The notes beneath the pieces are model-generated. The model made no database searches. It was given only the letters and a program-made list of their open reading frames with translations, and had not been told where the DNA came from. The position numbers and the translations under genes were made by a program. 64,000 bases of DNA from Strigamia acuminata (taxonomy: Eukaryota; Arthropoda; Chilopoda; Geophilomorpha; Linotaeniidae): contig CASHSZ010000007.1 in the NCBI GenBank assembly GCA_949358305.1, positions 62,001 to 126,000 of the forward strand, read 5' to 3'. Shown here piece after piece: positions 310 through 21,041 of this stretch. How positions within the stretch are numbered: the stretch's first letter is position 1; every line of letters begins with the position of its first letter.

Positions 310-1816
310 TATTAGTCACATAATTAAAATTTTTGTTATTAAAAGAGAAATGAACGGAGTCATTGACTGATTTGTCATCAACGGACTCACTTCACCGAAT
401 GATGAGGTCAATTAAACTTTTTGTTATTTGAAATTTTTTTCAGTTGTTATTAAAAGAAAATGAAATTGTATTTGCATAAACTCTTCTAATTACAATAAAT
501 GTGTGAATTAAATGTCATATTTTATTTAATCACTTGCTTAATACGTGTTTCCTCAAAATATATAATTAAAATTTTTGTTATTTGAAAATTCTTTCAGTTA
601 TTAAAAGAGAAATGACGGTTTCCAAGTGATAATTTGGACTGCCAAGTCCAAATTAGATTGAAAATAAAGTTTATGTCCGCTCTAATTCGTATTTGCACAA
701 GTTTGGAGGTTTACAAACCTCCAACCGCCATGTTGGATAATAACGGGCGTCGGCCCTTGTATCTTTTGTTCCTCGTTCGATTTTGTTTGTTTTAGCGGCT
801 ATTTAAGTTTATTAGGCCAGAACTAGCCTTGGATTAAATTCTCATAAGGATCTGTTCAGTATTTGTGAAGGAAAACGATCTTTTCCGCCGTCGTCCTTTT
901 TCCAATGATTTGGCTCGTTTGAATCGTCATTTCGAGCGACCCAACGAACGTTTTGTATACGCCGAGTTCGAGGCGCTGGTTTGACTATTCCTGACCGTTT
1001 CAACCGTACATATTGTTGTTTGACTGTTTTGCAGTCAGTTGCAAATTTGTTTTTGTTGAATAAACACACGTTTGTGTTTATTCTCTCTTTTGTGTTTCTT
1101 TGTGGTTTTGGCCAGCTTCCAGCCGGACTTCGCCATCAAATCCGAACCTCCATGTTACTGGATGAGAGTAGAAACACAATCTGCTCTCCATCCCGATCCC
1201 AGGGGCCAGGGACAAGTGACGACGAGAAGTTTGATTGCCATTTGAACCAGCGCCATGCAGTCTCGCCAGTCGCGTCGTTCCTTGGGCTCGCTGACCGCGG
1301 GCGTCTGCAGTTCACCCCAACCATTCCTAAATGTTAGCCAGCGGTCGTCCACACGGCCGGACGCCGACAGCAACAGCTGTTTTGATTTGCAAAAATTTTC
1401 AACTTCCTTGTGGACTATCTTTTTTTAAAAAGATAATACTAAATGTTGTTTATTTTTTATTTATAGTTTTGTGCTTATCAAATTTTTTTAGCCAGTAAGA
1501 ATTACAATATTTTTATTCCCAGCTTTTCATTTGTAAATTGAATTTTCTTATTTTTGTTTTTAATTTGTTAGAAGACTCAATATTGGCTTTTTGCCAAACT
1601 CAAGCTTGTATTTCTTTCAAGCAGAAAACGTCAGCTTTTCAATATTGGCCCACAGCAAATTCTCTTCGTTCCCCTTCTCTCTTTTGACAAAAATCCACTT
1701 TATTTATTTATTTATTATTTACAATATTTAAAACCTTACATTCTTATTTAGTAATTTTGTGCACCGAGAATTAGAAAAAAAGAGAAAAATTAAAGAAATT
1801 TTCTCAGTTTACATAA
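259..1816. other. hairpin-rich non-coding part of the repeat unit
   Basis: This segment recurs in every unit. It has an imperfect internal duplication (about 263-353 and 510-614, both with TTGCTTA-ACGTGTTTCCTC). It also has perfect or near-perfect inverted repeats at about 632-655 (AATTTGGACT/AAGTCCAAATT), 703-724 (TTGGAGGTTT/AAACCTCCAA) and 1059-1082 (AATAAACACA/TGTGTTTATT). A TATTTAAG box lies near 801 and an AATAAA near 1060, which would suit a second LTR-like or promoter sequence, but I found no ends or target duplication. Short frames on both strands look non-coding. Confidence 0.6.
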
Positions 1817-1820
1817 ATAT

Positions 1821-2325
1821 TGTTACGCGGTGGGCGAGCACGCTGTGAATCAGCTGTCGCCACCTCGCTTCCGTAGTTAATCATTAGAGAATAACCCCTA
1901 AAACTCTCACTAGAGTCCGCCTTAAGCGGATGAGGTAATGACTTTACCTATCACTGAATAATAGAACGATCGAGCTCTATTTAATGTTTGACAAGAGCCA
2001 AATTGGGACAGAGGTTGTCAGGCAGTTATTGCAGTGGCATCTCAAGGTTTTCCCATCCCAAAAGTTATTCATGCTTATTTAGTCTTAGGTTATTTTTAAG
2101 ATAGTTTTAGAATTTAGTTTAAGTTAAATTATATTTGTTTTCAGATTGTATTTATGGTTTAATAAACATACTGTTATATTTTAATAATAATACAATGAGT
2201 CCTCTTCATTTCCTTCTTATTAGCAACATAGTTTAAATGCTAGTTTAACTTAATGCAATTGCAAACCCCCAGTCTAATATAAAGTATTTACGTGGTCAAA
2301 CAGTAGTCAGTCTGGCCACGTAACA
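1821..2325 (+). mobile_element. solo LTR, Gypsy-type (array copy 1)
   Basis: A 505-bp segment starts TGTTACG and ends CGTAACA, perfect 7-bp inverted ends of the TG...CA type. It is flanked by ATAT on both sides (1817-1820 and 2326-2329), a 4-bp target duplication as made by Ty3/Gypsy elements. An AATAAA lies near 2161. No internal coding region adjoins it, so it is a solo LTR left after recombination between two LTRs. It was present before the array expanded because every unit carries it at the same place. Confidence 0.85.
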
Positions 2326-2715
2326 ATATTTCCAACTTATTTCATTAAATTTTCACATGATAGGAAATTCAAATTTTCCATATCAATTTTCAACTTGAAA
2401 ATGTTTTGAAATTTGCATTTTTTTCCAGTGTATTGTACGAGATTTTCGAATATATTACTTTCGACTTAGGCAGCAAAATCAAATCAAATTATCATCACTT
2501 ACTGTATGACATTTGATCATTTTAAGACAAATATTATTCAGAAAATAATATTATTATTGTTCCAAATAAATTACATAGGTGGTTTACGATTTAAAGTTTG
2601 ATGGGTATTTGTTACTTGGTATTAATGCAATTAAACGGTGACGAAATTCAATAATAATTTTTCGCACTTTTACATATTGTCACTGGTGGGATTTCGCACC
2701 GACGAACCAGTAAAA

Positions 2716-2820
2716 ATGGCCGGATATAACAATCCTTTCGGTGACACCAACAGTTTTCAATCGACGCCAAATAAATGTCTTATTTTATTAAATCATTTGC
2801 TTATACGTGTTTCCTCTTAA
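2716..2820 (+). pseudogene. 5' fragment of the NUP98-RING gene (array copy 2)
   Basis: Same 34-codon frame as at 205-309, one period downstream: 18 codons of the RING gene followed by 16 codons of unit DNA and a TAA. Confidence 0.85.
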
Positions 2821-4331
2821 TATTAGTCACATAATTAAAATTTTTGTTATTAAAAGAGAAATGAACGGAGTCATTGACTGATTTGTCATCAACGGACTCA
2901 CTTCACCGAATGATGAGGTCAATTAAACTTTTTGTTATTTGAAATTTTTTTCAGTTGTTATTAAAAGAAAATGAAATTGTATTTGCATAAACTCTTCTAA
3001 TTACAATAAATGTGTGAATTAAATGTCATATTTTATTTAATCACTTGCTTAATACGTGTTTCCTCAAAATATATAATTAAAATTTTTGTTATTTGAAAAT
3101 TCTTTCAGTTATTAAAAGAGAAATGACGGTTTCCAAGTGATAATTTGGACTGCCAAGTCCAAATTAGATTGAAAATAAAGTTTATGTCCGCTCTAATTCG
3201 TATTTGCACAAGTTTGGAGGTTTACAAACCTCCAACCGCCATGTTGGATAATAACGGGCGTCGGCCCTTGTATCTTTTGTTCCTCGTTCGATTTTGTTTG
3301 TTTTAGCGGCTATTTAAGTTTATTAGGCCAGAACTAGCCTTGGATTAAATTCTCATAAGGATCTGTTCAGTATTTGTGAAGGAAAACGATCTTTTCCGCC
3401 GTCGTCCTTTTTCCAATGATTTGGCTCGTTTGAATCGTCATTTCGAGCGACCCAACGAACGTTTTGTATACGCCGAGTTCGAGGCGCTGGTTTGACTATT
3501 CCTGACCGTTTCGACCGTACATATTGTTGTTTGACTGTTTTGCAGTCAGTTGCAAATTTGTTTTTGTTGAATAAACACACGTTTGTGTTTATTCTCTCTT
3601 TTGTGTTTCTTTGTGGTTTTGGCCAGCTTCCAGCCGGACTTCGCCATCAAATCCGAACCTCCATGTTACTGGATGAGAGTAGAAACACAATCTGCTCTCC
3701 ATCCCGATCCCAGGGGCCAGGGACAAGTGACGACGAGAAGTTTGATTGCCATTTGAACCAGCGCCATGCAGTCTCGCCAGTCGCGTCGTTCCTTGGGCTC
3801 GCTGACCGCGGGCGTCTGCAGTTCACCCCAACCATTCCTAAATGTTAGCCAGCGGTCGTCCACACGGCCGGACGCCGACAGCAACAGCTGTTTTAATTTG
3901 CAAAGATTTTCAACTTCCTTGTGGACTATCTTTTTTTAAAAAGATAATACTAAATGTTGTTTATTTTTTATTTATAGTTTTGTGCTTATCAAATTTTTTT
4001 AGCCAGTAAGAATTACAATATTTTTATTCCCAGCTTTTCATTTGTAAATTGAATTTTCTTATTTTTGTTTTTAATTTGTTAGAAGACTCAATATTGGCTT
4101 TTTGCCAAACTCAAGCTTGTATTTCTTTCAAGCAGAAAACGTCAGCTTTTCAATATTGGCCCACAGCAAATTCTCTTCGTTCCCCTTCTCTCTTTTGACA
4201 AAAATCCACTTTATTTATTTATTTATTATTTACAATATTTAAAACCTTACATTCTTATTTAGTAATTTTGTGCACCGAGAATTAGAAAAAAAGAGAAAAA
4301 TTAAAGAAATTTTCTCAGTTTACATAAATAT

Positions 4332-4836
4332 TGTTACGCGGTGGGCGAGCACGCTGTGAATCAGCTGTCGCCACCTCGCTTCCGTAGTTAATCATTAGAG
4401 AATAACCCCTAAAACTCTCACTAGAGTCCGCCTTAAGCGGATGAGGTAATGACTTTACCTATCACTGAATAATAGAACGATCGAGCTCTATTTAATGTTT
4501 GACAAGAGCCAAATTGGGACAGAGGTTGTCAGGCAGTTATTGCAGTGGCATCTCAAGGTTTTCCCATCCCAAAAGTTATTCATGCTTATTTAGTCTTAGG
4601 TTATTTTTAAGATAGTTTTAGAATTTAGTTTAAGTTAAATTATATTTGTTTTCAGATTGTATTTATGGTTTAATAAACATACTGTTATATTTTAATAATA
4701 ATACAATGAGTCCTCTTCATTTCCTTCTTATTAGCAACATAGTTTAAATGCTAGTTTAACTTAATGCAATTGCAAACCCCCAGTCTAATATAAAGTATTT
4801 ACGTGGTCAAACAGTAGTCAGTCTGGCCACGTAACA
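4332..4836 (+). mobile_element. solo LTR (array copy 2)
   Basis: Copy of the 505-bp LTR at 1821, with the same ends and ATAT flanks, carried along by duplication of the unit rather than by separate insertion. Confidence 0.85.
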
Positions 4837-5226
4837 ATATTTCCAACTTATTTCATTAAATTTTCACATGATAGGAAATTCAAATTTTCCATATCAATTT
4901 TCAACTTGAAAATGTTTTGAAATTTGCATTTTTTTCCAGTGTATTGTACGAGATTTTCGAATATATTACTTTCGACTTAGGCAGCAAAATCAAATCAAAT
5001 TATCATCACTTACTGTATGACATTTGATCATTTTAAGACAAATATTATTCAGAAAATAATATTATTATTGTTCCAAATAAATTACATAGGTGGTTTACGA
5101 TTTAAAGTTTGATGGGTATTTGTTACTTGGTATTAATGCAATTAAACGGTGACGAAATTCAATAATAATTTTTCGCACTTTTACATATTGTCACTGGTGG
5201 GATTTCGCACCGACGAACCAGTAAAA

Positions 5227-5331
5227 ATGGCCGGATATAACAATCCTTTCGGTGACACCAACAGTTTTCAATCGACGCCAAATAAATGTCTTATTTTATT
5301 AAATCATTTGCTTATACGTGTTTCCTCTTAA
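5227..5331 (+). pseudogene. 5' fragment of the NUP98-RING gene (array copy 3)
   Basis: Third copy of the 34-codon truncated frame, with the same 5' flank and the same junction after codon 18. Confidence 0.85.
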
Positions 5332-6842
5332 TATTAGTCACATAATTAAAATTTTTGTTATTAAAAGAGAAATGAACGGAGTCATTGACTGATTTGTCAT
5401 CAACGGACTCACTTCACCGAATGATGAGGTCAATTAAACTTTTTGTTATTTGAAATTTTTTTCAGTTGTTATTAAAAGAAAATGAAATTGTATTTGCATA
5501 AACTCTTCTAATTACAATAAATGTGTGAATTAAATGTCATATTTTATTTAATCACTTGCTTAATACGTGTTTCCTCAAAATATATAATTAAAATTTTTGT
5601 TATTTGAAAATTCTTTCAGTTATTAAAAGAGAAATGACGGTTTCCAAGTGATAATTTGGACTGCCAAGTCCAAATTAGATTGAAAATAAAGTTTATGTCC
5701 GCTCTAATTCGTATTTGCACAAGTTTGGAGGTTTACAAACCTCCAACCGCCATGTTGGATAATAACGGGCGTCGGCCCTTGTATCTTTTGTTCCTCGTTC
5801 GATTTTGTTTGTTTTAGCGGCTATTTAAGTTTATTAGGCCAGAACTAGCCTTGGATTAAATTCTCATAAGGATCTGTTCAGTATTTGTGAAGGAAAACGA
5901 TCTTTTCCGCCGTCGTCCTTTTTCCAATGATTTGGCTCGTTTGAATCGTCATTTCGAGCGACCCAACGAACGTTTTGTATACGCCGAGTTCGAGGCGCTG
6001 GTTTGACTATTCCTGACCGTTTCGACCGTACATATTGTTGTTTGACTGTTTTGCAGTCAGTTGCAAATTTGTTTTTGTTGAATAAACACACGTTTGTGTT
6101 TATTCTCTCTTTTGTGTTTCTTTGTGGTTTTGGCCAGCTTCCAGCCGGACTTCGCCATCAAATCCGAACCTCCATGTTACTGGATGAGAGTAGAAACACA
6201 ATCTGCTCTCCATCCCGATCCCAGGGGCCAGGGACAAGTGACGACGAGAAGTTTGATTGCCATTTGAACCAGCGCCATGCAGTCTCGCCAGTCGCGTCGT
6301 TCCTTGGGCTCGCTGACCGCGGGCGTCTGCAGTTCACCCCAACTATTCCTAAATGTTAGCCAGCGGTCGTCCACACGGCCGGACGCCGACAGCAACAGCT
6401 GTTTTGATTTGCAAAGATTTTCAACTTCCTTGTGGACTATCTTTTTTTAAAAAGATAATACTAAATGTTGTTTATTTTTTATTTATAGTTTTGTGCTTAT
6501 CAAATTTTTTTAGCCAGTAAGAATTACAATATTTTTATTCCCAGCTTTTCATTTGTAAATTGAATTTTCTTATTTTTGTTTTTAATTTGTTAGAAGACTC
6601 AATATTGGCTTTTTGCCAAACTCAAGCTTGTATTTCTTTCAAGCAGAAAACGTCAGCTTTTCAATATTGGCCCACAGCAAATTCTCTTCGTTCCCCTTCT
6701 CTCTTTTGACAAAAATCCACTTTATTTATTTATTTATTATTTACAATATTTAAAACCTTACATTCTTATTTAGTAATTTTGTGCACCGAGAATTAGAAAA
6801 AAAGAGAAAAATTAAAGAAATTTTCTCAGTTTACATAAATAT

Positions 6843-7347
6843 TGTTACGCGGTGGGCGAGCACGCTGTGAATCAGCTGTCGCCACCTCGCTTCCGTAGTT
6901 AATCATTAGAGAATAACTCCTAAAACTCTCACTAGAGTCCGCCTTAAGCGGATGAGGTAATGACTTTACCTATCACTGAATAATAGAACGATCGAGCTCT
7001 ATTTAATGTTTGACAAGAGCCAAATTGGGACAGAGGTTGTCAGGCAGTTATTGCAGTGGCATCTCAAGGTTTTCCCATCCCAAAAGTTATTCATGCTTAT
7101 TTAGTCTTAGGTTATTTTTAAGATAGTTTTAGAATTTAGTTTAAGTTAAATTATATTTGTTTTCAGATTGTATTTATGGTTTAATAAACATACTGTTATA
7201 TTTTAATAATAATACAATGAGTCCTCTTCATTTCCTTCTTATTAGCAACATAGTTTAAATGCTAGTTTAACTTAATGCAATTGCAAACCCCCAGTCTAAT
7301 ATAAAGTATTTACGTGGTCAAACAGTAGTCAGTCTGGCCACGTAACA
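6843..7347 (+). mobile_element. solo LTR (array copy 3)
   Basis: Copy of the 505-bp LTR in the third unit; one substitution (AACTCC for AACCCC) is visible near 6916. Confidence 0.85.
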
Positions 7348-7737
7348 ATATTTCCAACTTATTTCATTAAATTTTCACATGATAGGAAATTCAAATTTTC
7401 CATATCAATTTTCAACTTGAAAATGTTTTGAAATTTGCATTTTTTTCCAGTGTATTGTACGAGATTTTCGAATATATTACTTTCGACTTAGGCAGCAAAA
7501 TCAAATCAAATTATCATCACTTACTGTATGACATTTGATCATTTTAAGACAAATATTATTCAGAAAATAATATTATTATTGTTCCAAATAAATTACATAG
7601 GTGGTTTACGATTTAAAGTTTGATGGGTATTTGTTACTTGGTATTAATGCAATTAAACGGTGACGAAATTCAATAATAATTTTTCGCACTTTTACATATT
7701 GTCACTGGTGGGATTTCGCACCGACGAACCAGTAAAA

Positions 7738-7842
7738 ATGGCCGGATATAACAATCCTTTCGGTGACACCAACAGTTTTCAATCGACGCCAAATAAATGT
7801 CTTATTTTATTAAATCATTTGCTTATACGTGTTTCCTCTTAA
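7738..7842 (+). pseudogene. 5' fragment of the NUP98-RING gene (array copy 4)
   Basis: Fourth copy of the 34-codon truncated frame. The next period brings the intact gene at 10249. Confidence 0.85.
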
Positions 7843-9353
7843 TATTAGTCACATAATTAAAATTTTTGTTATTAAAAGAGAAATGAACGGAGTCATTGAC
7901 TGATTTGTCATCAACGGACTCACTTCACCGAATGATGAGGTCAATTAAACTTTTTGTTATTTGAAATTTTTTTCAGTTGTTATTAAAAGAAAATGAAATT
8001 GTATTTGCATAAACTCTTCTAATTACAATAAATGTGTGAATTAAATGTCATATTTTATTTAATCACTTGCTTAATACGTGTTTCCTCAAAATATATAATT
8101 AAAATTTTTGTTATTTGAAAATTCTTTCAGTTATTAAAAGAGAAATGACGGTTTCCAAGTGATAATTTGGACTGCCAAGTCCAAATTAGATTGAAAATAA
8201 AGTTTATGTCCGCTCTAATTCGTATTTGCACAAGTTTGGAGGTTTACAAACCTCCAACCGCCATGTTGGATAATAACGGGCGTCGGCCCTTGTATCTTTT
8301 GTTCCTCGTTCGATTTTGTTTGTTTTAGCGGCTATTTAAGTTTATTAGGCCAGAACTAGCCTTGGATTAAATTCTCATAAGGATCTGTTCAGTATTTGTG
8401 AAGGAAAACGATCTTTTCCGCCGTCGTCCTTTTTCCAATGATTTGGCTCGTTTGAATCGTCATTTCGAGCGACCCAACGAACGTTTTGTATACGCCGAGT
8501 TCGAGGCGCTGGTTTGACTATTCCTGACCGTTTCGACCGTACATATTGTTGTTTGACTGTTTTGCAGTCAGTTGCAAATTTGTTTTTGTTGAATAAACAC
8601 ACGTTTGTGTTTATTCTCTCTTTTGTGTTTCTTTGTGGTTTTGGCCAGCTTCCAGCCGGACTTCGCCATCAAATCCGAACCTCCATGTTACTGGATGAGA
8701 GTAGAAACACAATCTGCTCTCCATCCCGATCCCAGGGGCCAGGGACAAGTGACGACGAGAAGTTTGATTGCCATTTGAACCAGCGCCATGCAGTCTCGCC
8801 AGTCGCGTCGTTCCTTGGGCTCGCTGACCGCGGGCGTCTGCAGTTCACCCCAACCATTCCTAAATGTTAGCCAGCGGTCGTCCACATGGCCGGACGCCGA
8901 CAGCAACAGCTGTTTTGATTTGCAAAGATTTTCAACTTCCTTGTGGACTATCTTTTTTTAAAAAGATAATACTAAATGTTGTTTATTTTTTATTTATAGT
9001 TTTGTGCTTATCAAATTTTTTTAGCCAGTAAGAATTACAATATTTTTATTCCCAGCTTTTCATTTGTAAATTGAATTTTCTTATTTTTGTTTTTAATTTG
9101 TTAGAAGACTCAATATTGGCTTTTTGCCAAACTCAAGCTTGTATTTCTTTCAAGCAGAAAACGTCAGCTTTTCAATATTGGCCCACAGCAAATTCTCTTC
9201 GTTCCCCTTCTCTCTTTTGACAAAAATCCACTTTATTTATTTATTTATTATTTACAATATTTAAAACCTTACATTCTTATTTAGTAATTTTGTGCACCGA
9301 GAATTAGAAAAAAAGAGAAAAATTAAAGAAATTTTCTCAGTTTACATAAATAT

Positions 9354-9858
9354 TGTTACGCGGTGGGCGAGCACGCTGTGAATCAGCTGTCGCCACCTCG
9401 CTTCCGTAGTTAATCATTAGAGAATAACCCCTAAAACTCTCACTAGAGTCCGCCTTAAGCGGATGAGGTAATGACTTTACCTATCACTGAATAATAGAAC
9501 GATCGAGCTCTATTTAATGTTTGACAAGAGCCAAATTGAGACAGAGGTTGTCAGGCAGTTATTGCAGTGGCATCTCAAGGTTTTCCCATCCCAAAAGTTA
9601 TTCATGCTTATTTAGTCTTAGGTTATTTTTAAGATAGTTTTAGAATTTAGTTTAAGTTAAATTATATTTGTTTTCAGATTGTATTTATGGTTTAATAAAC
9701 ATACTGTTATATTTTAATAATAATACAATGAGTCCTCTTCATTTCCTTCTTATTAGCAACATAGTTTAAATGCTAGTTTAACTTAATGCAATTGCAAACC
9801 CCCTGTTTAATATAAAGTATTTACGTGGTCAAACAGTAGTCAGTTTGGCCACGTAACA
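9354..9858 (+). mobile_element. solo LTR (array copy 4)
   Basis: Copy of the LTR in the last unit, 390 bp upstream of the intact gene start. It has the most private changes of the four (near 9538, 9800 and 9844). It is the LTR best placed to supply promoter or enhancer sequence to the intact RING gene. Confidence 0.85.
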
Positions 9859-10248
9859 ATATTTCCAACTTATTTCATTAAATTTTCACATGATAGGAAA
9901 TTCAAATTTTCCATATCAATTTTCAACTTGAAAATGTTTTGAAATTTGCATTTTTTTCCAGTGTATTGTACGAGATTTTCGAATATATTACTTTCGACTT
10001 AGGCAGCAAAATCAAATCAAATTATCATCACTTACTGTATGACATTTGATCATTTTAAGACAAATATTATTCAGAAAATAATATTATTATTGTTCCAAAT
10101 AAATTACATAGGTGGTTTACGATTTAAAGTTTGATGGGTATTTGTTACTTGGTATTAATGCAATTAAACGGTGACGAAATTCAATAATAATTTTTCGCAC
10201 TTTTACATATTGTCACTGGTGGGATTTCGCACCGACGAACCAGTAAAA

Positions 10249-11316
10249 ATGGCCGGATATAACAATCCTTTCGGTGACACCAACAGTTTTCAATCGACGC
10301 CATTCGGGTTCGGGTTCGAGAATGCGCCATTTTGCTCGGCGACCGATACAAACGGGACCACGATCAAGTTTAATGCAGTGGATGGAATCGATACGTTGAT
10401 GAAGAACGGCATAAACACGACGATTAACATAAGGCATCAATGCATAACGGTCATGAAGGAATACGAAACGAAGAGCTTAGAGGAACTAATGTTGGAAGAT
10501 TATCAGAGTAATCGGAAGGGACCTCAACCGGGGACTTTTGGGGGTTTCAGTGTGGCGCAACCGTTGTTTTTTTGTAGCAGTACAACCACTCCGACAACCG
10601 GCTTGTTTCAAAATCTGAATGAACCTTTATGTTGGTCCACGAATCCTTTTGATGTGATGGCGAATACTACGTCCATCTTCGGGCCAAAGATGCAGCAGCA
10701 AAATAACACACCTTTTGGTGCGGCGAAACCCCTGACGTTCGGTACACCCTTCCTGTCTACGGCCGAGTCGAGTTTTAATTTCAATTATCCCGCAGGTGGC
10801 GCGAATAATTTTGGAAGTACACTTGCGAATCAGAATAAATCGATGTTTGGAACGACAACAAATCAACCGGCGCCGGACTGGTTTCTCTCGAGCATGCTCG
10901 GAACGATGCCATTCACGACTCAAAATCAACCGGGTATTTTAGGGAATAAAACAGGATTTAGAGCCACCACGACAGCCCCGAAAGTGTTTCGGTCCGCCAA
11001 TCTGACCAACACGACTAATCCCTTCCGTTTGAAGCCAAACACCAGCTTTGGAGCGCCGTCTGGAACCACCAGCAGCACTTCCGGGGGGTTTAATCCAAGA
11101 TCTTCGAATGTAGTGGATGCGAAGGAGGGGGTACAGGCTAAGTGTATAGTCTGTCTTGTTCAGGACAGAAACACACTGATGCTACCTTGTTTGCACGCTT
11201 ATTTCTGCGCTACTTGCAGCGCCCGTGTGTTAGACGATGCCCGCCGTGCGCAAGCAACTCCACAGTGCCCCTCCTGCAGGCATGGTGTAACCTCTACTCT
11301 CCGCATTTTCATGTAA
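10249..11316 (+). CDS. NUP98-like FG/GLEBS protein with C-terminal RING finger
   Basis: This 355-aa intronless frame starts at an ATG in strong context (AAAAATGGCC). Residues 1-30 and 95-280 carry FG, GLF and FGxP-type repeats like nucleoporin NUP98. Residues about 36-93 match the NUP98 GLEBS segment, which docks the mRNA-export factor Rae1/Gle2: TTIKFN, then HQCITVMKEYETKSLEEL, LEDYQ-NRKGPQ. The C-terminus is a C3HC4 RING with C299, C302, C314, H316, C320, C323, C340 and C343, followed by a short hydrophobic tail ending LRIFM, much as in IAP-type RINGs. The autoproteolytic domain of NUP98 is absent. Known of the families: GLEBS binds Rae1 at nuclear pores, and RINGs recruit E2 enzymes for ubiquitin transfer. 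I infer an E3 ligase aimed at Rae1 or pore-bound partners. The lack of introns suggests a retrogene or viral capture. Confidence 0.85.
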   Translation: MAGYNNPFGDTNSFQSTPFGFGFENAPFCSATDTNGTTIKFNAVDGIDTLMKNGINTTINIRHQCITVMKEYETKSLEELMLEDYQSNRKGPQPGTFGGFSVAQPLFFCSSTTTPTTGLFQNLNEPLCWSTNPFDVMANTTSIFGPKMQQQNNTPFGAAKPLTFGTPFLSTAESSFNFNYPAGGANNFGSTLANQNKSMFGTTTNQPAPDWFLSSMLGTMPFTTQNQPGILGNKTGFRATTTAPKVFRSANLTNTTNPFRLKPNTSFGAPSGTTSSTSGGFNPRSSNVVDAKEGVQAKCIVCLVQDRNTLMLPCLHAYFCATCSARVLDDARRAQATPQCPSCRHGVTSTLRIFM

Positions 11317-11439
11317 AATAGTACAGCTGCATTAAAAAATTAAACATTTTGTGTTTAAGTTTATTTTTAAAACAAAAAACAAAATCATTTCCTGTCTATA
11401 AAACTAAAATTTGTAAAAGTACAAATTAAAATACAATTT

Positions 11440-11445
11440 TAATAA
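11440..11445 (+). terminator. poly(A) signal of the NUP98-RING gene
   Basis: AATAAA about 125 bp after the stop codon, in an AT-rich 3' flank; the nearest canonical signal to the gene. Confidence 0.5.
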
Positions 11446-12433
11446 ACTCCAGTTTACTTCTTCAATTTTAAGTGCAGTTTTGCTGTATGTTTTCTCCAAA
11501 CTCTGCAAAAATCTTTATCTGTACAACAGAGACTCTGAAAAGGATTAAATGCTTTAATAAAAATAGAAAATGAATATTAGTAATTTATTTATTTATAAAA
11601 AAAGATACAATTTCGAATTTTTACGTGAACATTTTAAACATTTAACTGGATTTTGCTTCAATTTTAATAAAACATATAAGACAAATGTAATGCAATAACA
11701 ATCTTAAAACATAACATAAACTAAATCACAGAGCGGAAAAGCTCTCAAAGTGGTGCGATTTCAGACTTAAAAACTCTGTTTAATATGTTTTATGTTAGCT
11801 TTCAGAGAGAGAAAACATGTTTACAATGACGAGCGAAGGTTTTCTTCACTTGTCTCACGAAAGGCCCTGAAGGTCACTTGACATTTTAAAACTAAAGAAT
11901 TGTTATGTGTAGTTCTCCAGAGCCACACATAATAATGTAGAAAATAAAAAAAGGTGAATTGAAGGTGAATTGTCAGAAATAAGACCAAGTTTAATCAGAC
12001 CTTATTAGTCATGTAACTCACATGTCTGTGAATTTTGCAATTTTGTTTAAAAATTCAATTAAATAATAAAGCAATAAATAGTTGTAGTTGTTTATTCTTA
12101 GAAACACAATTCCACTTTCATAAAACAATTGACAAATAAGGATAATAGAAATGGGAAAATATAAATTGTTAATTTAATATTTCCTTTTTTATTTAAATTG
12201 AAAAAGGGAAATTAGCATTTCTTAATATCACTGACAAATAGTTGGCATTTCTTAATACAATTGAATAATGCGTTTCATAATACTATTGTAAAATGCATTT
12301 GATAATAAAATAAATTAAATGGATGGGTAAAAATCTAATTTGATGGAACACACATTTAATTGACCTCATTTTTATTTTAAATAAACAACTGCTCTCTAAT
12401 TTAAAAAGTGAACAAATGATGAAATGGGAGCTT
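11446..12433. other. AT-rich intergenic DNA
   Basis: No coding frame is seen. The only structure is the dispersed repeat listed at 11971-12130 and simple AT-rich runs. Confidence 0.6.
11971..12130 (+). repeat. dispersed repeat family A, copy 1
   Basis: Begins TGTCAGAAATAAGACCAAGTTTA and includes ACATGTCTGTGAATTTTGCA. The first ~115 bp recur in direct orientation at 14256-14384 and partly inverted at 17671-17745. The last ~40 bp, around TTCTTAGAAACACAATTCCA, recur inverted near 19083-19115. The spacing of direct and inverted copies suggests ends of a non-autonomous transposon, now broken up. Confidence 0.6.
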
Positions 12434-12441
12434 CAATCCAT

Positions 12442-12510
12442 GTGAATCATGGATTCATCCATGATTCATCCATGATTCATCCATGATTCATGGATGAATC
12501 CATGATTCAC
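12442..12510. promoter_or_regulatory. 19-bp-arm hairpin with 11-bp repeats, upstream of a TATA box
   Basis: Arms 12442-12460 (GTGAATCATGGATTCATCC) and 12492-12510 are perfect inverse complements. The 31-bp centre repeats an 11-bp unit, ATTCATCCATG. The structure ends 17 bp before a TATA box and 62 bp before the next ATG. It could form a cruciform or hold clustered sites for a dimeric regulator; it could also be only a decayed simple repeat. Confidence 0.6.
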
Positions 12511-12527
12511 AAAGCAACAAACTGTAA

Positions 12528-12535
12528 TATATATA
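12528..12535 (+). promoter_or_regulatory. TATA box for the 159-codon gene
   Basis: TATATATA 45 bp upstream of the ATG at 12573. Transcription starting about 30 bp further on would give a very short 5' leader. Confidence 0.45.
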
Positions 12536-12572
12536 GCTCAACATTATTTCACCTCTTCAGAACGTTTCCTAA

Positions 12573-13052
12573 ATGCAGAACATGACGACAGATAATTCTC
12601 AGCACACGTGCATCTTAGGCGATACCCAGCTTCACCAGGGCAATAACGATACACCCAATAACCCATGCGGAATCAAAGATTGTGATCTTCATCTTTTTTG
12701 TTTATGGCAAAGATATTTTGAATCCAATCCATACAGTAATATGTCAGACAGTAGCATTGACTCGATTATTGAAGCAGTTTTGAGGAAGTTCGAGAAAGAA
12801 TTCTACTCCCCGTCAACACAGACCCCCACAATTACGAATCCTAATGCTGAACAACTGACAAGTTCAACAGGCAGTCAACAGGATGCAGCAACACCACTCA
12901 ATCACAGTTGTGTGGCTACACAACTGTGTTTGGAACCTTACGTCCCGATGGCCTTATTGGACGATATTAGCGCTGCTAGAGATAAATTGACGGCAGCCAT
13001 ATTTGCGCTAGAACGTTTTTACAAGGCGAATCCATCTGTTTCCTCACATTAA
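12573..13052 (+). CDS. hypothetical protein, 159 aa
   Basis: Not recognised. The frame is intact from an ATG 45 bp after a TATA box to a TAA, and AT-rich 3' DNA follows. The protein is polar and rich in Asn, Thr, Ser and Gln. It has six cysteines in the first half and near residue 115, including CGIKDCDLHLFC (about residues 33-44), which could bind metal or form disulphides. Two predicted amphipathic stretches lie near residues 60-75 (DSIIEAVLRKFEKEF) and 125-150 (LLDDISAARDKLTAAIFAL). There is no signal peptide or membrane segment. The last helix could dimerise. Codon use and length support a real gene, but it has no assigned function. Confidence 0.5.
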   Translation: MQNMTTDNSQHTCILGDTQLHQGNNDTPNNPCGIKDCDLHLFCLWQRYFESNPYSNMSDSSIDSIIEAVLRKFEKEFYSPSTQTPTITNPNAEQLTSSTGSQQDAATPLNHSCVATQLCLEPYVPMALLDDISAARDKLTAAIFALERFYKANPSVSSH

Positions 13053-13594
13053 CAACCTAAATGTCCTGTCCTGTATTTCCTCTTTTATGTATTTATATAT
13101 ATATATTTTATATATTTTACGTAATGTATTATTAAAATTTCTGCTTGTAATTTCATGTTTTCTAAATAATTATAATGTAAGTAAATGTGATGTAAAATTT
13201 GTATTTACTTGAATTAAAATTGGGATAGTTAGGCTTATAGGACATCTCATTTCTCTCTTCGTTTTTTTTCAGAACAAAATCTTTTTAGCACCCCGTTTTT
13301 TCACACACATAAACCCTTGACTCCAAAAATTTTTTTTCCGAATTGCAAAGTTTAAGTCTAAACTGTTATCAGATTGGGCAGTATCCAAGGCCCCACGCGT
13401 CTAAGGGCCCGGAAAAATATTTTTTTAACTAATTCAAACTAATTTCAACACGTATTTACAGGAAAAGTCAGCAGGAAGAGGAAAACAATTAGATACTTTG
13501 AATAATTTTACACAAATCCTAGATAGCGTATTAAAAAGTCTGACGTTTTCTTTTGCATTGAATAGAAGCGACGGCTAAACACTTAACATTCACG
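13053..13594. other. intergenic DNA
   Basis: AT-rich, with a TA-dinucleotide run at about 13092-13112. No gene or clear promoter is seen. Confidence 0.5.
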
Positions 13595-14068
13595 ATGCTG
13601 GCCTTGATTATACTCGAGTTTGCTTCGTCCTTTTTAACTCTGTGCACCCTGTTTGTGGCAAGACTGCAGGAATATTACCAATCGACGGAAGAGGAAAAGA
13701 GAGCTCAAATAGGAACCCCGAGAGACATACCGTTGAATCAATTTAAAATTTCTGTGTCGGACGAAGGAGTAAGGTCTGTTCATTACGAAATGGTGCCCCG
13801 AGGAGTGCGGGTGGCGCCTGAGGAACGAGACTGGGCCATTGGACGGGGCCGAGCAGTTGGTAGATATGGCCCGACCCCAAGACCGGGTAGAATCATCGCT
13901 GAAGTGGCTCCGTCAAACCCACGTGAAACGATATCAGTAGAGCGGAGGAGGCAGGAGCACCGACAAGAGGAAGAGCGGATCCAGATCGAGCAAGACGATG
14001 CTCTGGCCGCCTATGAGCTAGCCTTGGAGGAGGAAGAAGAAGACTATCTGTGGGGGCAGGAACAATAG
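13595..14068 (+). CDS. hypothetical membrane-anchored acidic protein, 157 aa
   Basis: Not recognised. Residues 1-23 (MLALIILEFASSFLTLCTLF) are a strongly hydrophobic N-terminus that would act as a signal peptide or signal anchor. The middle holds a basic, Gly/Arg/Pro-rich stretch (about 70-105). From about residue 110 the protein is highly charged and likely helical (ERRRQEHRQEEERIQIEQ), ending in an acidic tail with a run of six Glu and a Trp near the C-terminus. AATAAA signals follow at about 14187. The gene is clearly more GC-rich than its flanks, which supports coding. A type II membrane protein with a coiled-coil tail is the best reading; no family is assigned. Confidence 0.5.
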   Translation: MLALIILEFASSFLTLCTLFVARLQEYYQSTEEEKRAQIGTPRDIPLNQFKISVSDEGVRSVHYEMVPRGVRVAPEERDWAIGRGRAVGRYGPTPRPGRIIAEVAPSNPRETISVERRRQEHRQEEERIQIEQDDALAAYELALEEEEEDYLWGQEQ

Positions 14069-14255
14069 AAGAATAGTATGTGTTTCCAAGTGTAAATCCA
14101 AAATACGAGTAGCTTCTGTGTTATGTTTCTCCAGTGTTATAAACGTAAACCTCTGTTTAAATCGTGGATAACTAATTGAGATTACAATAAATAAATTATT
14201 AAATCGATTTTTGCATTACTGATTCTTTTACTCCTTAACCTGATGTGCAAGCACG

Positions 14256-14384
14256 TGTCAGAAATAAGACCAAGTTTAGTCAGACCTTATTAGTCATGTA
14301 ACTCTCATGTCTGTGAATTTTGCAATTCCATTTAAAAGTTCAATTAAATAATAAAACAATAATAAATAGTTGTAGTAGTTTATT
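14256..14384 (+). repeat. dispersed repeat family A, copy 2
   Basis: Direct copy of 11971-12090: starts TGTCAGAAATAAGACCAAG and ends with AAATAATAAAACAATAATAAATAG. About 35 bp of it (CTGTGAATTTTGCAATTCCA onward) is the exact inverse complement of 17671-17705. Confidence 0.7.
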
Positions 14385-15564
14385 CATTGCAATATTCATT
14401 GACATGAAAAAAAAGTGTGTTTTTTTTAGACAGATAAGTGAATTACTGTACATAAAAACGTCAATTTTGCATATTTTAAAATGAAGGATGTATAATTTAA
14501 CATAAAAAATGCATAAATTAACAAAAAATGCAAAAATTGACACGAAAAATGTATAATTTCACGTGACAAATGCATTTTGACTCGCAAAATGCAGTTTTTA
14601 CACGCAAAATGCCTTTATGACACAAAAATACATTTTTTGACAAAAGGAAAAATCACATTTTCGGCATTGATAAATCACTTTTAAGTGTATAATTGTATAA
14701 CTTTACACTTTTTTCCTTGATATCAATTTTGGCAGGTTAAATATGCATTTGTGCATGTAAAAATGCATTTTTGCTGTTAATATAAGATTTTTTTTTAAAG
14801 TAATGCAATTTTGCAGGTTAAAATGTGTTTTGCAAGTAAAAATGCATTTCTACACCTAAAATGAATTGGTGCTGTCGAGCAGACTTTACTTCACTTCACT
14901 TCACGCTAGTTTGAAGGCCAGGTGTAATTTGCAGGATAACATGCATACGGTCAACCGGATTGACGTCTTAAGTCGTCTTTCGATAATTTCATACATTAGA
15001 AACGTGCCTTGTAAATAAAAGGATGAATTCAAAGTGTGTTATTAATGTTTTAATATATTTTTTATATTAATTACAAATCATTTATATATTCTTAACCAAT
15101 TAATCGAGCATTCCTCAATATTATAACGCAATGTTTACTAGTTTTTCCGCTTGTTTTTATCAAACAATTCGCACCTAAAACGACATATTTATTAATTTAT
15201 TTATTTACATATTTTTGTTTTTTCTTGTAAAATATATATTTTTTAAATTTTCGTTATCTAATTGGCATTTCCAAAGAATAAAATGGATTTTTAAGTGCAA
15301 AATCCACATATATTTCGTATATCCGCTTCAAAAGAACGTCTATACCCATTTGTTTCGGATCGGTAACGACGATAAATCTAATTCCTGAAATAAAAAAGCG
15401 AAAGAAAGAAATAAAATACAAATTTGGGATCAAATCTAACCAGTTAATATCTGAAAACAATGAACTTTGAACGTGTCTGCTTCCAAAACTTCGATTCCTG
15501 ACGACTGCACTTCTGGGTTCAGTTGCGACGCAAAGCCGTACAATCTGTTAACGAAAAATTACTG
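14385..15564. other. AT-rich non-coding DNA with degenerate TGCATTTT-type repeats
   Basis: Between about 14470 and 14860 the motif AAAATGCA or its complement recurs many times at irregular 20-30 bp spacing, mostly with CAC or TAC before it, like a worn minisatellite. Two short minus frames here are low-complexity and unconvincing. The rest is AT-rich. Confidence 0.5.
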
Positions 15565-16123
15565 TGAACTTTGCTCTGCAACAAAGTTCAATTTTACCCC
15601 TTAATTACTCTGTATTTGTAGATTTAGGCCCAGTTTACAACAACTGAGTCGTTTGGCCATTTTTTTTTCATCGATTACTTTTTTTGGGGGCGTTTTCCTG
15701 GATGGATAAGTTCTATTTCAGGTTTGGCCTTGCTTGTCACCTGCTCAGGCCGTAGCAGAAATGTGTATGTGACAGAAATTGCTAATACAATTTCTGCAGT
15801 TGATCACATGGCTGTTTTTATCCTATCACGAATTAGCAAAATTGGATTAACCAATGGCACGAATTAAGTTTTTATCAATTATGACTCACTATTTTCGTGC
15901 GTCATCTAGTTGCATTAAGCGAGGCCGTTACAATTGAGAAAAACCTTAATTCGTGTCATTTATTAATAAAATTTTGCTAATACGAAATATGATTTAAAAA
16001 CCAGCCATGTGAATCAATTGTAGAATTTGTATTTCAAATTTGTGTAATGAATTTATTTGCTTTTTAAATATTGCAACTTTTATTGTTCTTTATTAAATTT
16101 CAATTTATTTAGTTTTTATTGCT

Positions 16124-16537
16124 TTAACCCTTCCCAATCCAACCTAGGGTCAATTTTGACCTCCAAAAATGTTTTTATTTTTTTTCTCATTGCATTCAAA
16201 GGTAGTGAGTAAACAAAGGAATTTTTTTTGAAAATTTTTATTTGCAATTTTTTAATCTATTATTTTTTTATTGTTTGTTATGATGTTCAATGCAAATACA
16301 TGAAATTTCAGAATGAAAATCCCAATAGTTTTTGAGAAAAAAATAAAATGTCAATTATTTTTGTCGCTATCTTCTGACAAATGCCGAATTGCAGAAATTT
16401 CTTCATAAACATGAAATTCTCAGAGAATAAAATCATTTTCACTCCTCATTTTGGGAAAATTTTTTTCGGCTAGGGGTTAAAAATGACCCGGGTTGGGTGA
16501 GTAAGAAATTTTTTTAAGTTGGGGCTGCGAGGGTTAA
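16124..16537 (+). mobile_element. TTAA-flanked MITE, piggyBac-like (copy 1)
   Basis: A 414-bp element bounded by TTAA on both sides, with ends TTAACCCTTCCC and CTGCGAGGGTTAA. The TTAA target and the CCCT...AGGG ends fit piggyBac-type cut-and-paste elements. Both ends also hold related internal motifs (CCTAGGGTCAATTTTGACC on the left, AAAATGACCCGGGTTGGG on the right). It has no coding capacity, so it would need a transposase from elsewhere. Confidence 0.7.
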
Positions 16538-17144
16538 GCAATGTTAAGCTTTAGAAATGAAATGCAAACTGTTTTTTTATGTATTTGAGAACTTTGCTCT
16601 GCAGCAAAGTTTAATTTTACCCCTTAATTACTCTGTATTAGTAGATTTAGGCCCAGTTTACAACAACTGAGTTGTTTGGCCATTTTTTTTTTCATCGATT
16701 ACTTTTTTTTGGGGTGTTTTCCTGGATGGATAAGTTCTATTTCAGGTTTGGCCTTCCTTGCCACCTGCTCAGGCCGTAGCAGAAATGTGTATGTGACAGA
16801 AATTTCTAATACAATTTCTGCAGTTGATCACATGACTGTTTTATCCTATCACGAATTAGCAAAATTAAATTAACCAATGGCACGAATTAAGTTTTTATCA
16901 ATTATGACTACATATTTTCGTGCGTCATCTATGCATTAAGCGAAGCCATTACAATTGAGAAAAACCTTAATTCGTGTCATTTATTAATAAAATTTTGCTA
17001 ATACGAAATATGATTTAACAACCAGCCATGTGAATCAATTGTAGAATTTGTATTTCAAATTTGTGTAATGAATTTATTTGCTTTTTAAATATTGCAACTT
17101 TTATTGTTCTTTATTAAATTTCAATTTATTTAGTTTTTATTGCT

Positions 17145-17560
17145 TTAACCCTTCCCAATCCAACCTAGGGTCAATTTTGACCTCCAAAAATGTTTTTATT
17201 TTTTTTCTCATTGCATTCAAAGGTAGTGAGTAAACAAAGGAATTTTTTTTTAAAATTTTTATTTGCAATTTTTAAATCTATTATTTTTTTTATTGTTTGT
17301 TATGATGTTCAATGCAAATACATGAAATTTCAGAATGAAAATCCCAATAGTTTTTGAGAAAAAAATAAAATGTCAATTATTTTTGTCGCTATCTTCTGAC
17401 AAATGCCGAATTGCTGAAATTTCTTCATAAACATGAAATTCTCAGAGAATAAAATCATTTTCACTCCTCATTTTGGGAAAAATTTTTTTCGGCTAGGGGT
17501 TAAAAATGACCCGGGTTGGGTGAGTAAGAAATTTTTTTAAGTTGGGGCTGCGAGGGTTAA
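17145..17560 (+). mobile_element. TTAA-flanked MITE, piggyBac-like (copy 2)
   Basis: The same element in the second 1024-bp unit, with a few base changes and length differences in A/T runs. It was copied with the tandem duplication, not inserted separately. Confidence 0.7.
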
Positions 17561-17670
17561 GCAATGTTAAGCTTTAGAAATGAAATGCAAACTGTTTTTT
17601 TTATGTATTTGAGAACTTTGCTCTGCAGCAAAGTTCAATTTTACCCCTTAATTACTCTGTATTTGTAGAT

Positions 17671-17745
17671 TTAATTGAACTTTTAAATGGAATTGCAAAA
17701 TTCACAGGGATGTGAGTTACATGAATAATAAGGTCTGATTAAACT
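17671..17745 (-). repeat. dispersed repeat family A, copy 3 (inverted)
   Basis: Reads as the inverse complement of 14256-14345 (AATTGAACTTTTAAATGGAA onward). With copy 2 it forms inverted arms around the 1024-bp tandem block. Confidence 0.7.
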
Positions 17746-17799
17746 GCCATATTCATGCTGATTTCTCGTAGATGTGTACTATACTTAGATGAAAAACGC

Positions 17800-17873
17800 A
17801 AGTAAATTTAACCAATTGTCTGACTTCTAACGCCATCAGTTGATAGCATTTGACACTCGGAGGAAGAAAGTTG
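17800..17873 (+). repeat. 74-bp direct repeat, copy 1
   Basis: Matches 19145-19218 with few changes; core GACTTCTAACGCCATCAGTT and ending GGAGGAAGAAAGTTG. Its nature is unknown. Confidence 0.7.
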
Positions 17874-18356
17874 CTTAAATCTAAAATTTCTAGAAAAACA
17901 AAAACTAAACAAAAATTAAATTCATTTATTTTATGTGTTTAAAAGAAAACAAAATACTCTAAAATAAACTTCATGGTTATTAATGTAAATTATTAAAACG
18001 AAATAAAATAATTCAAATTTCAAACTCATAATTCATAATTAATGAAAAATACACGAAAATAAATAATTAAAACACCGATTCAGCTCGTTTCGCTTTATCG
18101 GGTCGGTCGTTTCTTTGCGTTGCATCGCATTTCCTGGGTGAAAAACACACAAAATACTACTTTTAAATGTATAAATGTAAATTGAATTCAAAACACATTT
18201 AGAGCAGACAGCTTAAATTCAACCAATGGGAATAAAGCTTTTGCTCATGACCAAAATTACAGGAAGGACTCTTTAATAAATACAAATGATATGTAATCAA
18301 TACATTACAAAATCCAAACTTATCAACTAACATAGCAAAGGTAAAAGAATATCCTA
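17874..18356. other. AT-rich intergenic DNA
   Basis: Runs of A and T, no gene or repeat of note. Confidence 0.5.
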
Positions 18357-18869
18357 TTAAACATTTATATTTAAATCACAACAGCATTCAAAGACCACAC
18401 ACAAACAAGATGGCTTCCTGACAACTCGCTGCGGGAGCAAGGAGTGAGAAAACGGACGGTAACAGTACCAAATGGCTGCTGCATGACTCCAAGGATCCCC
18501 CACAACAGGTAGGACACTTAATAAACACAACTGAGCACAAATGACCGCTTGAGTCGTTGCAGATCGCGCCCGGGACCTGCCACAACTTGCACGCATGTTG
18601 CGCATACTAGGGACAGCGATGATCACATAAAACGCATGTTTCAGTAGGGTTACGAGCCTCCCAAGCACCCAGCAGATGTCCATGACTAAAAACAAGGTAT
18701 ATAAATTGATAATAAGCCGCTGGGATGCACGAAATGTGTCCGAACACTCTTTTGACAGTCTCTCCTCTTCCAGTTCATTTTCGAGGCAGCCAGATGCTCC
18801 AAGCAGGTCATACAGCCCGCACAAGTGAACTGGAACGGGACAGCATTTAAATACATGTAAAAATGACAA
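18357..18869 (-). CDS. possible membrane protein or exon remnant, 170 codons
   Basis: Not recognised. An ATG-started frame lies in a patch more GC-rich than its surroundings. It encodes a Cys-rich start, an acidic stretch (ENELEEERLSKE, about residues 30-41) and two hydrophobic segments (about 55-75 and 80-95), then another near 115-130. Two other frames are also open over part of the same DNA, which weakens the case. It could be a decayed exon of a multi-pass receptor or a chance frame. Confidence 0.25.
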   Translation of the reverse strand: MSFLHVFKCCPVPVHLCGLYDLLGASGCLENELEEERLSKECSDTFRASQRLIINLYTLFLVMDICWVLGRLVTLLKHAFYVIIAVPSMRNMRASCGRSRARSATTQAVICAQLCLLSVLPVVGDPWSHAAAIWYCYRPFSHSLLPQRVVRKPSCLCVVFECCCDLNINV

Positions 18870-19721
18870 AAAAGCATTTTAAAACAACAACAAAATTATC
18901 AAAGCTCTGATATATCATTGCAGGAAGCACCTACACTGATGTTGACACAGAAAGACCCTACAAAAAGCCACTTAAAGCTGGGAAAAAATTCAGATATGTG
19001 ATAAATGAATAAATTAACTGTAAGAATGAAATTCAAAACTTTTCTTTGCATTTTCAGATAACAACTAATTCAAATTGCAATCAGTTTTATGAAAGTAGAA
19101 TTGGGTTTCTAAGTGAAAATCAGAAATCAGAAATAGACGAAAACAAGTAAATTTCGCCAATTGTCAGACTTCTAACGCCATCAGTTGAGAGCATTTGACA
19201 CTAGGAGGAAGAAAGTTGTTTCTATCTAAAAATTCTGGACAAAATTGGATGGAGAAGAGTTTAGAAACGGAAAGACTAAAGTGAAAGACTAAGAATGGGA
19301 AGAGAGCTTTTACAAAAGACATTCTTTAGGCTTATGTGCAAATTTGTATGTTGAATTATAAATTATATTTGGATTCATTCCAGCAAAATCAGGAGGGGCA
19401 TTTGGATTTGTTTTTTTTTGAATAATTAGTGAATCAGAAAAATAAAAAGTTCTTTAGCAGTGTTAGTCATAAAAGAAAATGTTTATTTTAATCTAAGGAA
19501 AGACTAATATATTTTAAATGTTCTTTAAATTATTTTTTAAGATAAAAAAGCTGACATATTTTAAATGTCGTCATTTCATTCTTTTTAATAATGGAAAGAG
19601 TATTACAGTGCAGAATATATTCTGTGGAAAAGGTTTTATGATTTCCTTTCTAGTCGCAAGAGAGAACAAATTATGCACATTTCTGCATCCAGCTTAGAAA
19701 TGCTAATTTCCCTTTTTCAAT
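18870..19721. other. intergenic DNA with scattered repeat pieces
   Basis: AT-rich. Contains the inverted piece of repeat family A near 19083-19115 and the second 74-bp direct repeat at 19145-19218. No gene is seen. Confidence 0.5.
19145..19218 (+). repeat. 74-bp direct repeat, copy 2
   Basis: Copy of 17800-17873, about 1345 bp downstream, with a handful of substitutions. Confidence 0.7.
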
Positions 19722-20627
19722 TTAAGTAGAAAAAGGCTGTTCCAATTCAATAAGTCCCTTGTCTATTAGCATTTTTCGTCTATTAGTTATTTTCTCCAAC
19801 AACTCCATGTAGATCCAGTCTTGCGCACATTCTTGCAATACCAATGTTGCTAGTGGAGAATTTGACAATAAAATATTCTGTTCCAGTTTACTCATTAGTA
19901 AGAACAAAAAACAGTAGGGAATTTTACAGCTACGCTTAACAAACGGTAACAATCTTGAAAAATCTTCGGAAAGGATAAAAATTTTTTCTTCATTCGAAAA
20001 TTTGGACCATACGAATTTTATTGCACTTTCGTTTCCGACTGTTGCAAACAACATCAACAACAGAAACTTGCTCCCCACGTCAACTGCTTCACGTTTGATG
20101 ACAGCAATCCAAAATGTTATTACTTGTACTTTGATGTTATCTGCTTGTATTTCGTTGATGATGGTGGTGAGTGCCTCGGGAACTCGTTGCCATGCAATTT
20201 TATCTTGATCTATGATGAAATACTTGAAAGCGATTTTGGATCTCGTAATCACTTTTAATTTTTCGTCTGACACCATCAGGCGTGCTGTTTTTTGATAATT
20301 TATTTTACCATGTGATGTCCACTCAGCGTATTTGTAGTGGCACATCATTTCATCCAAATTATTAAATATGTCAGATATATTAATTAGCCATTTGCGTAGT
20401 TCTATTCCAGTTAAGTTCACAATTTTAACCAACGATTGTTTTAAAAATGGAGGCAAAGGTAATTTATCCACGTTTTTAGAAATTATTGTGTCAACATCTT
20501 GCCAATTCGCGTTGGTTGCTTTAGTGGCGTTGATAGTGTAAAAAATATCGTTAGTTTTCCATAAAATTGTGGCAATTTTGATTAATGCCGCACGTTCCAG
20601 CAGTGGGACCGAAAGTGTTATTTGCAT
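19722..20627 (-). CDS. hypothetical all-helical protein, 301 aa
   Basis: Starts at ATG (20627 on the minus strand) and is intact to TAA. The protein is rich in Leu, Ile, Lys and aromatic residues, with repeated W-containing helices such as ALIKIATILWKTNDI (about residues 13-27), ITFWIAVIKREAVDVGSKFLLL and IKFVWSKFSNEEKIFIL (about 200-220). The pattern of amphipathic helices with recurrent W-x2-F/L resembles degenerate ankyrin/HEAT-like helical repeats found in large lineage-specific families of arthropods. That resemblance is from memory and is weak. There is no signal peptide and no catalytic motif. A cytoplasmic helical scaffold is a fair guess. It is transcribed away from the caspase-like gene at 21042. 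Confidence 0.55.
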   Translation of the reverse strand: MQITLSVPLLERAALIKIATILWKTNDIFYTINATKATNANWQDVDTIISKNVDKLPLPPFLKQSLVKIVNLTGIELRKWLINISDIFNNLDEMMCHYKYAEWTSHGKINYQKTARLMVSDEKLKVITRSKIAFKYFIIDQDKIAWQRVPEALTTIINEIQADNIKVQVITFWIAVIKREAVDVGSKFLLLMLFATVGNESAIKFVWSKFSNEEKIFILSEDFSRLLPFVKRSCKIPYCFLFLLMSKLEQNILLSNSPLATLVLQECAQDWIYMELLEKITNRRKMLIDKGLIELEQPFST

Positions 20628-20818
20628 TTTGCGATCGACTCTGTTTGTAGAAGCTAGAAGAATGTAAAATAGCTAGTTGTCTTTTAAACATCTTATTCAA
20701 TTTAAAAAATAGGTGAAAAAACGTGTGTTTGAGCATAATTCAATTGCAATTCCTACTGTTTAATATTTATTGAAAGTTAATTCCTATTTGCTAAAATACA
20801 ATTCAAAATTTTTGACTG

Positions 20819-20884: not shown

Positions 20885-21041
20885 ATTTAAATTTATTGGA
20901 ATTATATTCAAGTTTATTAAAATTCAATGCAATTTTGTTGTTAATAAAAGAACCCAATGTATATAGGATAATAAACATTTTAAAAAACCGTCGACAGCTG
21001 ATTACTGGTTTTAAAAGCCTTTTGCCAGCTGGTAACCAAGC

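Follow-up and report, generated by a model that had tools for sequence, protein, structure and literature searches.

The gene at positions 10249-11316 of the window, by which we mean the whole 64,000-nucleotide stretch of the Strigamia acuminata genome that was analysed (C18:62001-126000), encodes a protein in which the Rae1-docking GLEBS hairpin and FG sequence of the nucleoporin Nup98 are followed by a RING finger, and it is, to judge from its sequence, a processed retrocopy of a fusion lineage born beside Nup98. Several retrocopies of this fusion travel with a dispersed segment, which goes beyond what an earlier sequence-only reading of the same DNA had proposed. The architecture of the gene, its parentage, its loss of introns, its dispersal and its least-changed parts can be read directly in the genome. 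Its function is a more tentative matter: that a mobile segment here carries a RING ligase aimed at Rae1, derived from a retroposed Nup98-RING fusion, seems to us quite possible, if somewhat short of probable.

The open frame holds 355 amino acids and a terminal stop, with no internal stop, and is laid out as follows:

10249-11316, forward strand: intronless coding sequence of the 355-aa GLEBS-FG-RING protein (translation, Pfam, phmmer against the PDB, four other full-length open copies).
10354-10527, forward strand: GLEBS region, residues 36-93, including E78 and E79 (Pfam; identity to human GLEBS).
10528-11088, forward strand: FG-containing middle, residues 94-280, decaying (FG counts; branch changes).
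11143-11313, forward strand: RING finger, residues 299-343, and C-terminal tail, residues 344-355 (Pfam; alignment of seven RINGs).

The sequence-only reading had recognised a Nup98 Rae1-binding signature at residues 36-93 and a complete C3HC4 RING at residues 299-343, and had suggested a Pfam profile search of both, in which the two domains are indeed found above their cut-offs. Nup98_GLEBS matches residues 48-85 (2.1e-21; 76.1 bits, cut-off 27), and of residues 35-90, 38 of 56 are identical in human GLEBS; the host's own Nup98 reaches 41 of 56. In a phmmer search of the PDB, human Nup98 aligns to residues 8-207 (1.2e-21), a match that thus covers both GLEBS and the flanking FG sequence. At the other end of the protein, zf-C3HC4_3 matches residues 297-349 (3.3e-10; 40 bits, cut-off 27); the eight zinc ligands, in C3HC4 spacing, are invariant across seven aligned RINGs from the host genome, and in all seven the last ligand is followed by an arginine, which we take to be the linchpin residue in E2-dependent transfer. 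Neither Nucleoporin2 (PF04096) nor a BIR domain is among the Pfam matches of the protein. Chance or artefact as the origin of the frame is ruled out by the Pfam and PDB matches and by the four other loci at which it recurs in full length and open. Nor have two genes been read as one, since an intron-bearing gene on contig C11 has the identical junction, and the two domains do belong to a single gene as had been claimed.

Taken alone, the RING stretch finds its best PDB match in MEX3C (2e-5), with weak matches to BIRC2 and BIRC3 (0.03-0.05); its predicted fold is of low confidence (mean pLDDT 57.8), which makes the model too poor for a fold search. The window protein shares a C-terminal C3HC4 RING with the IAP- and MEX3C-type ligases, but has GLEBS in place of their BIR or KH domains. 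Five other RINGs of the host have 41-54% identity to it where they align, including one at the end of a MULE transposase. Such a transposase with a C-terminal RING lies at L026:5682-7541 and in L027 (MULE 7.9e-12, RING 6.8e-9, FLYWCH under cut-off), and MULE-RING frames of 639-640 aa occur at four places in the genome; one oomycete MULE with a C3HC4 RING has also been reported (PMC6446971).

A search of the host genome (237.5 Mb, 157 contigs) with the window protein gave 86 matches, mostly to the RING part alone. Coding remains of the gene itself are present at nine loci, five of them full-length and open and four broken or partial (genome protein search):

C18 (window), C5:11914312, C5:11376669, C3:16331496 and C9:10452780: full-length open copies.
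C12:8855569: broken copy, with a stop and a frame change.
C13:1008885: fragmented copy with stops.
C5:16466738 and C5:16488569: 3' part alone.

The open copies are 0-19 codons apart. A further place, C13:7396870, was considered as an empty insertion site and rejected: it keeps the first approximately 28 nt of the gene and rejoins approximately 200 nt past the stop codon, and is thus a deletion.

A genome search for the GLEBS family returned ten matches, seven at retrocopy loci and three on C11. It is on C11 that the true Nup98 lies, recognised by its PF04096 domain, as the genome profile search matches only there. Directly before it stands the intron-bearing GLEBS-FG-RING gene (L019:4423-5966), the spliced model of which encodes 371 aa (GLEBS 6.8e-18, RING 3e-10); the exon limits on C11 are purely sequence-based models, drawn from similarity and splice signals. 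Up to the junction, the exon order of this fusion lineage is the same as that of Nup98, and the junction from Nup98 to RING is common to the C11 fusion and the window copy. Homologues with the same fusion, for which the sequence-only reading had suggested a search, are thus found within the host genome, in the C11 gene and at the retrocopy loci. A third GLEBS gene of the Nup98 locus, with two GLEBS units, lies before the fusion gene (L019:2400-3263); its five-exon model, whose end is uncertain, matches at 5.5e-24 over the whole protein and contains no RING within the modelled part.

That the window gene is intronless, as had been noted, is explained by its being a processed retrocopy. When the modelled exons of both C11 genes are compared with it, six introns are precisely gone from the window copy, namely one in the 5' untranslated region and five in the coding part, and a seventh, also coding, is gone together with approximately 30 nt of exon. 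Moreover, the alignment with the C11 genes continues on both sides of the coding sequence:

10113-10248, forward strand: retrocopied 5' leader, without the 5' untranslated intron that both C11 genes have (alignment with the two).
11317-11385, forward strand: retrocopied 3' trailer, containing an A-rich tract close to where the parent has its poly(A) signal (alignment).

No target-site duplication above chance was found around the window copy (the longest shared word, of 6, was matched in 1000 of 1000 shuffles), and it may have decayed. Synonymous distances are 0.31 between the fusion and Nup98, 0.20 between the window copy and the fusion, and 0.38 between the window copy and Nup98, values that fit duplication and fusion first and retroposition later. 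In the history that we propose, the 5' part of Nup98 would have been duplicated beside Nup98 and then joined to a RING exon, after which an mRNA of the fusion lineage would have been reverse-transcribed into the later dispersed mobile segment, which then spread. Duplication, fusion, retroposition and spread would thus be readable within one genome.

Compared with Nup98 and Nup98-Nup96, the window protein retains GLEBS with its Rae1-contact glutamates, FG sequence and the exon order up to the junction, but has a RING instead of the autoproteolytic Nucleoporin2 domain, dwindling FG motifs and no introns. Indeed, the window protein has 10 FG motifs, none of them GLFG, as against 16 for the C11 fusion and 35 for residues 1-509 of Nup98. 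Between retrocopy and C11 fusion, dN/dS is 0.40 for the RING, 0.58 for GLEBS and 1.18 for the FG part. With Nup98 as the third sequence for assigning changes to branches, the FG part shows 9 synonymous and 47 nonsynonymous changes on the retrocopy branch; the Nup98 branch has 18 and 12 there (p = 5.9e-5). On the retrocopy branch, then, this part has shed the constraint that the Nup98 branch shows; the retrocopy and fusion branches do not differ in it (p = 0.34).

These data bear on whether the copies do anything at all. They might be functionless retrocopies that ride along with the segment and have not yet had the time to decay, which we consider unlikely, albeit worth serious weight: the five open copies are so few codons apart, the remaining copies are broken or partial, one segment copy is deleted for the gene, and several selection contrasts fail to reach significance. 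Among the latter, synonymous against nonsynonymous changes do not distinguish GLEBS from FG within the retrocopy branch (p = 0.37), and in the retrocopy-fusion pair FG against GLEBS plus RING gives p = 0.11, or p = 0.08 by nonsynonymous rate. However, fewer codons have changed on the retrocopy branch in GLEBS (7 of 58) than in FG (47 of 179; p = 0.03), where the 179 codons are those of the aligned retrocopy-fusion pair, a slightly larger set than the three-way alignment; the RING has the low dN/dS given above, and five open frames persist. GLEBS carries 3 synonymous and 7 nonsynonymous changes on this branch, all seven at residues 43-60 and none at residues 61-93, for which p = 9e-5 is too good a value, as the limits were picked after seeing the data. 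Twelve nonsynonymous sites are found among the open copies, none in the RING (chance 0.085) and one in GLEBS. On balance we lean towards constraint on both the GLEBS and the RING end, short of proof, and part of that constraint may be older than the retroposition.

Rae1 acts in mRNA export and in the formation of the spindle and is also bound by viral proteins (PMC9376891 for the viral binding). In human Nup98, E201 and E202 form salt bridges to Rae1 (PMC3783196), and in our alignment E78 and E79 of the window protein match these two residues (counting from residues 157-213). In the reading of a Rae1-directed ligase, a protein that has GLEBS but not the pore-anchoring end of Nup98 should reach Rae1; its GLEBS hairpin would dock there in competition with Nup98, its RING would recruit a charged E2, and Rae1, or the cargo of Rae1, would receive ubiquitin, which would remove it or draw it away from pores and spindle; the FG middle would now be chiefly a linker. 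Rae1 binding, ligase activity and this outcome are what we infer. Were it so, the gene would be a natural targeted ubiquitin ligase made from a nucleoporin's own docking peptide, and the use of GLEBS decoys against Rae1, by cells or by mobile DNA, becomes testable.

The ligase step could be dispensed with if GLEBS merely titrated Rae1 off Nup98, the RING serving just for dimerisation or self-turnover, and we rate this decoy as rather unlikely. GLEBS overexpression in HeLa cells mislocalises Rae1 and keeps poly(A) RNA in the nuclei (PMC3783196), and the two-GLEBS gene, RING-less in its model, sits in the same C11 cluster. TRIM34, a RING protein reported to interact with RAE1, as the window protein would, has effects on mRNA export for which its ligase activity is said to be dispensable, and the decoy thus stays in play; no GLEBS fusion is mentioned for TRIM34 in the accessible text of that paper (PMC13189347). 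Against the decoy, all the RING ligands are kept in the window protein, and the dN/dS of its RING against the C11 fusion lies below that of GLEBS.

TRIMCyp and kindred chimeras of a bait and a RING arose through retroposition, which joined a RING to a host binding module. Here the bait would be the Rae1-docking peptide of Nup98 and, unlike TRIMCyp, the fusion by all signs came first and was then retroposed whole. It is conceivable that GLEBS-held Rae1 attracts viral proteins that target Rae1-Nup98 and that these are then marked by the RING, on the model of TRIMCyp; the binding of Rae1-Nup98 by viral proteins and the multiplication of GLEBS copies at the Nup98 locus speak for such an antiviral bait, but ORF6 tails contact no part of GLEBS in the structural account available to us (PMC9376891), and we find it very improbable. 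A selfish role, in which the protein would help the segment to be passed on through the germline, is more improbable still, in spite of the gene's lying among other host-like genes on a segment that multiplies and of the involvement of nuclear transport in a Drosophila male drive system (PMC8645118), as the copies are spread over several contigs and some are broken.

In Drosophila, nuclear-transport genes such as Ran, Ntf-2 and importins have been duplicated through RNA; for the genes studied, other dipterans were reported to have few such retroduplications and the remaining insects none, and Nup93 was the sole duplicated nucleoporin of 30, Nup98 being unnamed in the main text (PMC8645118). 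The centipede gene resembles these retrogenes in being a nuclear-transport gene duplicated via RNA, but it derives from a nucleoporin, was fused to a RING before retroposition and occurs in several copies on a mobile segment. It would thus be a nucleoporin retrocopy outside the pattern described there, at least as the consulted part of that study presents it. Among the open-licence papers found by our literature search, as far as their accessible text goes, no GLEBS-RING protein is described.

The retroposed fusion is embedded in a segment whose features in the window are:

1-10302, forward strand: tandem array of period 2511, each unit ending in the gene's upstream region and first 54 coding nt.
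12573-13052, forward strand: 159-aa open reading frame in the dispersed segment (no Pfam match; colinear in other copies).
13595-14068, forward strand: 157-aa open reading frame in the dispersed segment (no Pfam match over cut-off; colinear in other copies).
19722-20627, reverse strand: 301-aa open reading frame of a large host family (genome search).
21301-22434, forward strand: caspase-like open reading frame (Peptidase_C14 1.7e-16; caspase-7 3.8e-18), its start coordinate being provisional.
22795-23034, unstranded: minisatellites adjoining the segment end (repeat analysis).
23185-23224, forward strand: exact end common to the segment copies, ...GGAAATATAG, found again at 57857 in a 34,633-bp duplication.

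Queried with the last 125 bp before position 23224, the genome holds this end at 18 places, 15 of which reach the last base while three stop short. All 15 complete ends were read and have unlike flanks, with exceptions at the window, whose two ends belong to one duplication, and at C5, where two ends lie in similar repeats. The end stands on the proper side and strand at seven of the nine gene loci, approximately 4 to 33 kb from the gene; none matching was found at the C5:11376669 and C5:16466738 loci. The C12 copy follows window positions 10250-20580, with gaps, at 93.6-99.0% and continues to 23007, and in the C3 and C9 copies the matching parts are 10249-11699 and, after it, 20600-23224. Over 10,198 bp these two copies differ by a single mismatch, and their left flanks are dissimilar; the right side of the C3 copy runs into N, so that an assembly fault is possible there. 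One precise terminus recurs in unlike flanks, and we call the segment mobile or dispersed; part of the dispersal picture is explained by segmental duplication, as for the inverted pair at C5:16.46-16.49 Mb.

A second terminus and a mobilising enzyme were not found among the segment copies examined. An apparent second end in C9 (L016:4972) proved to be a local boundary, beyond which other copies continue; near the known end, a comparison that could miss a short or diverged repeat showed no inverted partner. Pack-MULEs and Helitrons are gene-carrying DNA transposons, and the 3' end of a Helitron is CTRR followed by T. A Helitron was rejected here, given that the segment ends in ATAG with a varying base after it, which does not fit CTRR; Helitron-type domains have 11 matches elsewhere in the genome. 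The segment shares dispersal, host-derived genes and one exact end with gene-carrying DNA transposons as presented in PMC6446971, but differs in that its known end is not CTRR and has no inverted partner that we could find. An endogenous virus is unsupported, neither the gene nor four other open reading frames of the window having relatives in viral contigs, in a scan that finds close relatives only.

The family of the 301-aa frame has 133 matches in the genome, seven at 96-100% and the others at 21-92%, and the contigs of the seven near-identical copies all contain the segment end as well; many members are located at C8:10.2-10.7 Mb and on C1, and the 301-aa frame has no Pfam match. The caspase-like frame has SYG and QADPK in place of the catalytic motifs SHG and QACRG of caspase-7. 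Its counterpart frame in C9 had no Pfam match, and a 280-aa frame upstream in C9, like the 159- and 157-aa frames, could be assigned to no known kind. A wider proposal, that the segment carries host-derived effectors, including the Rae1-directed RING ligase and the altered caspase-like protein, which would disturb nuclear export, mitosis or cell death for its own advantage or for defence, strikes us as distinctly doubtful. If it were true, an arms race would centre on Rae1, something of which the additional GLEBS genes of the Nup98 locus give a hint.

A piece similar to the unit of the 2511-bp array is also present at C5:11891033-11891775, and thus the array is not merely a product of assembly at this place. 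Within the unit, the approximately 300 bp at 9560-9864 have 95-98% matches in many places, often paired some kilobases apart, and are probably a long terminal repeat. Elsewhere in the window, 24478-28737, 41961-48166 and 48741-54020 are retrotransposons of the copia, gypsy-type and BEL/Pao kinds, with long open frames. Four open reading frames of 237-344 aa at 30086-35207 have no Pfam match over cut-off, and two of them have no relatives in viral contigs; within this region, 30104-30811 and 32947-33654 are 96% identical. Finally, 22598-29367 and 57231-64000 form a tandem duplication of period 34,633 bp, 99.9% identical, which continues past the window.
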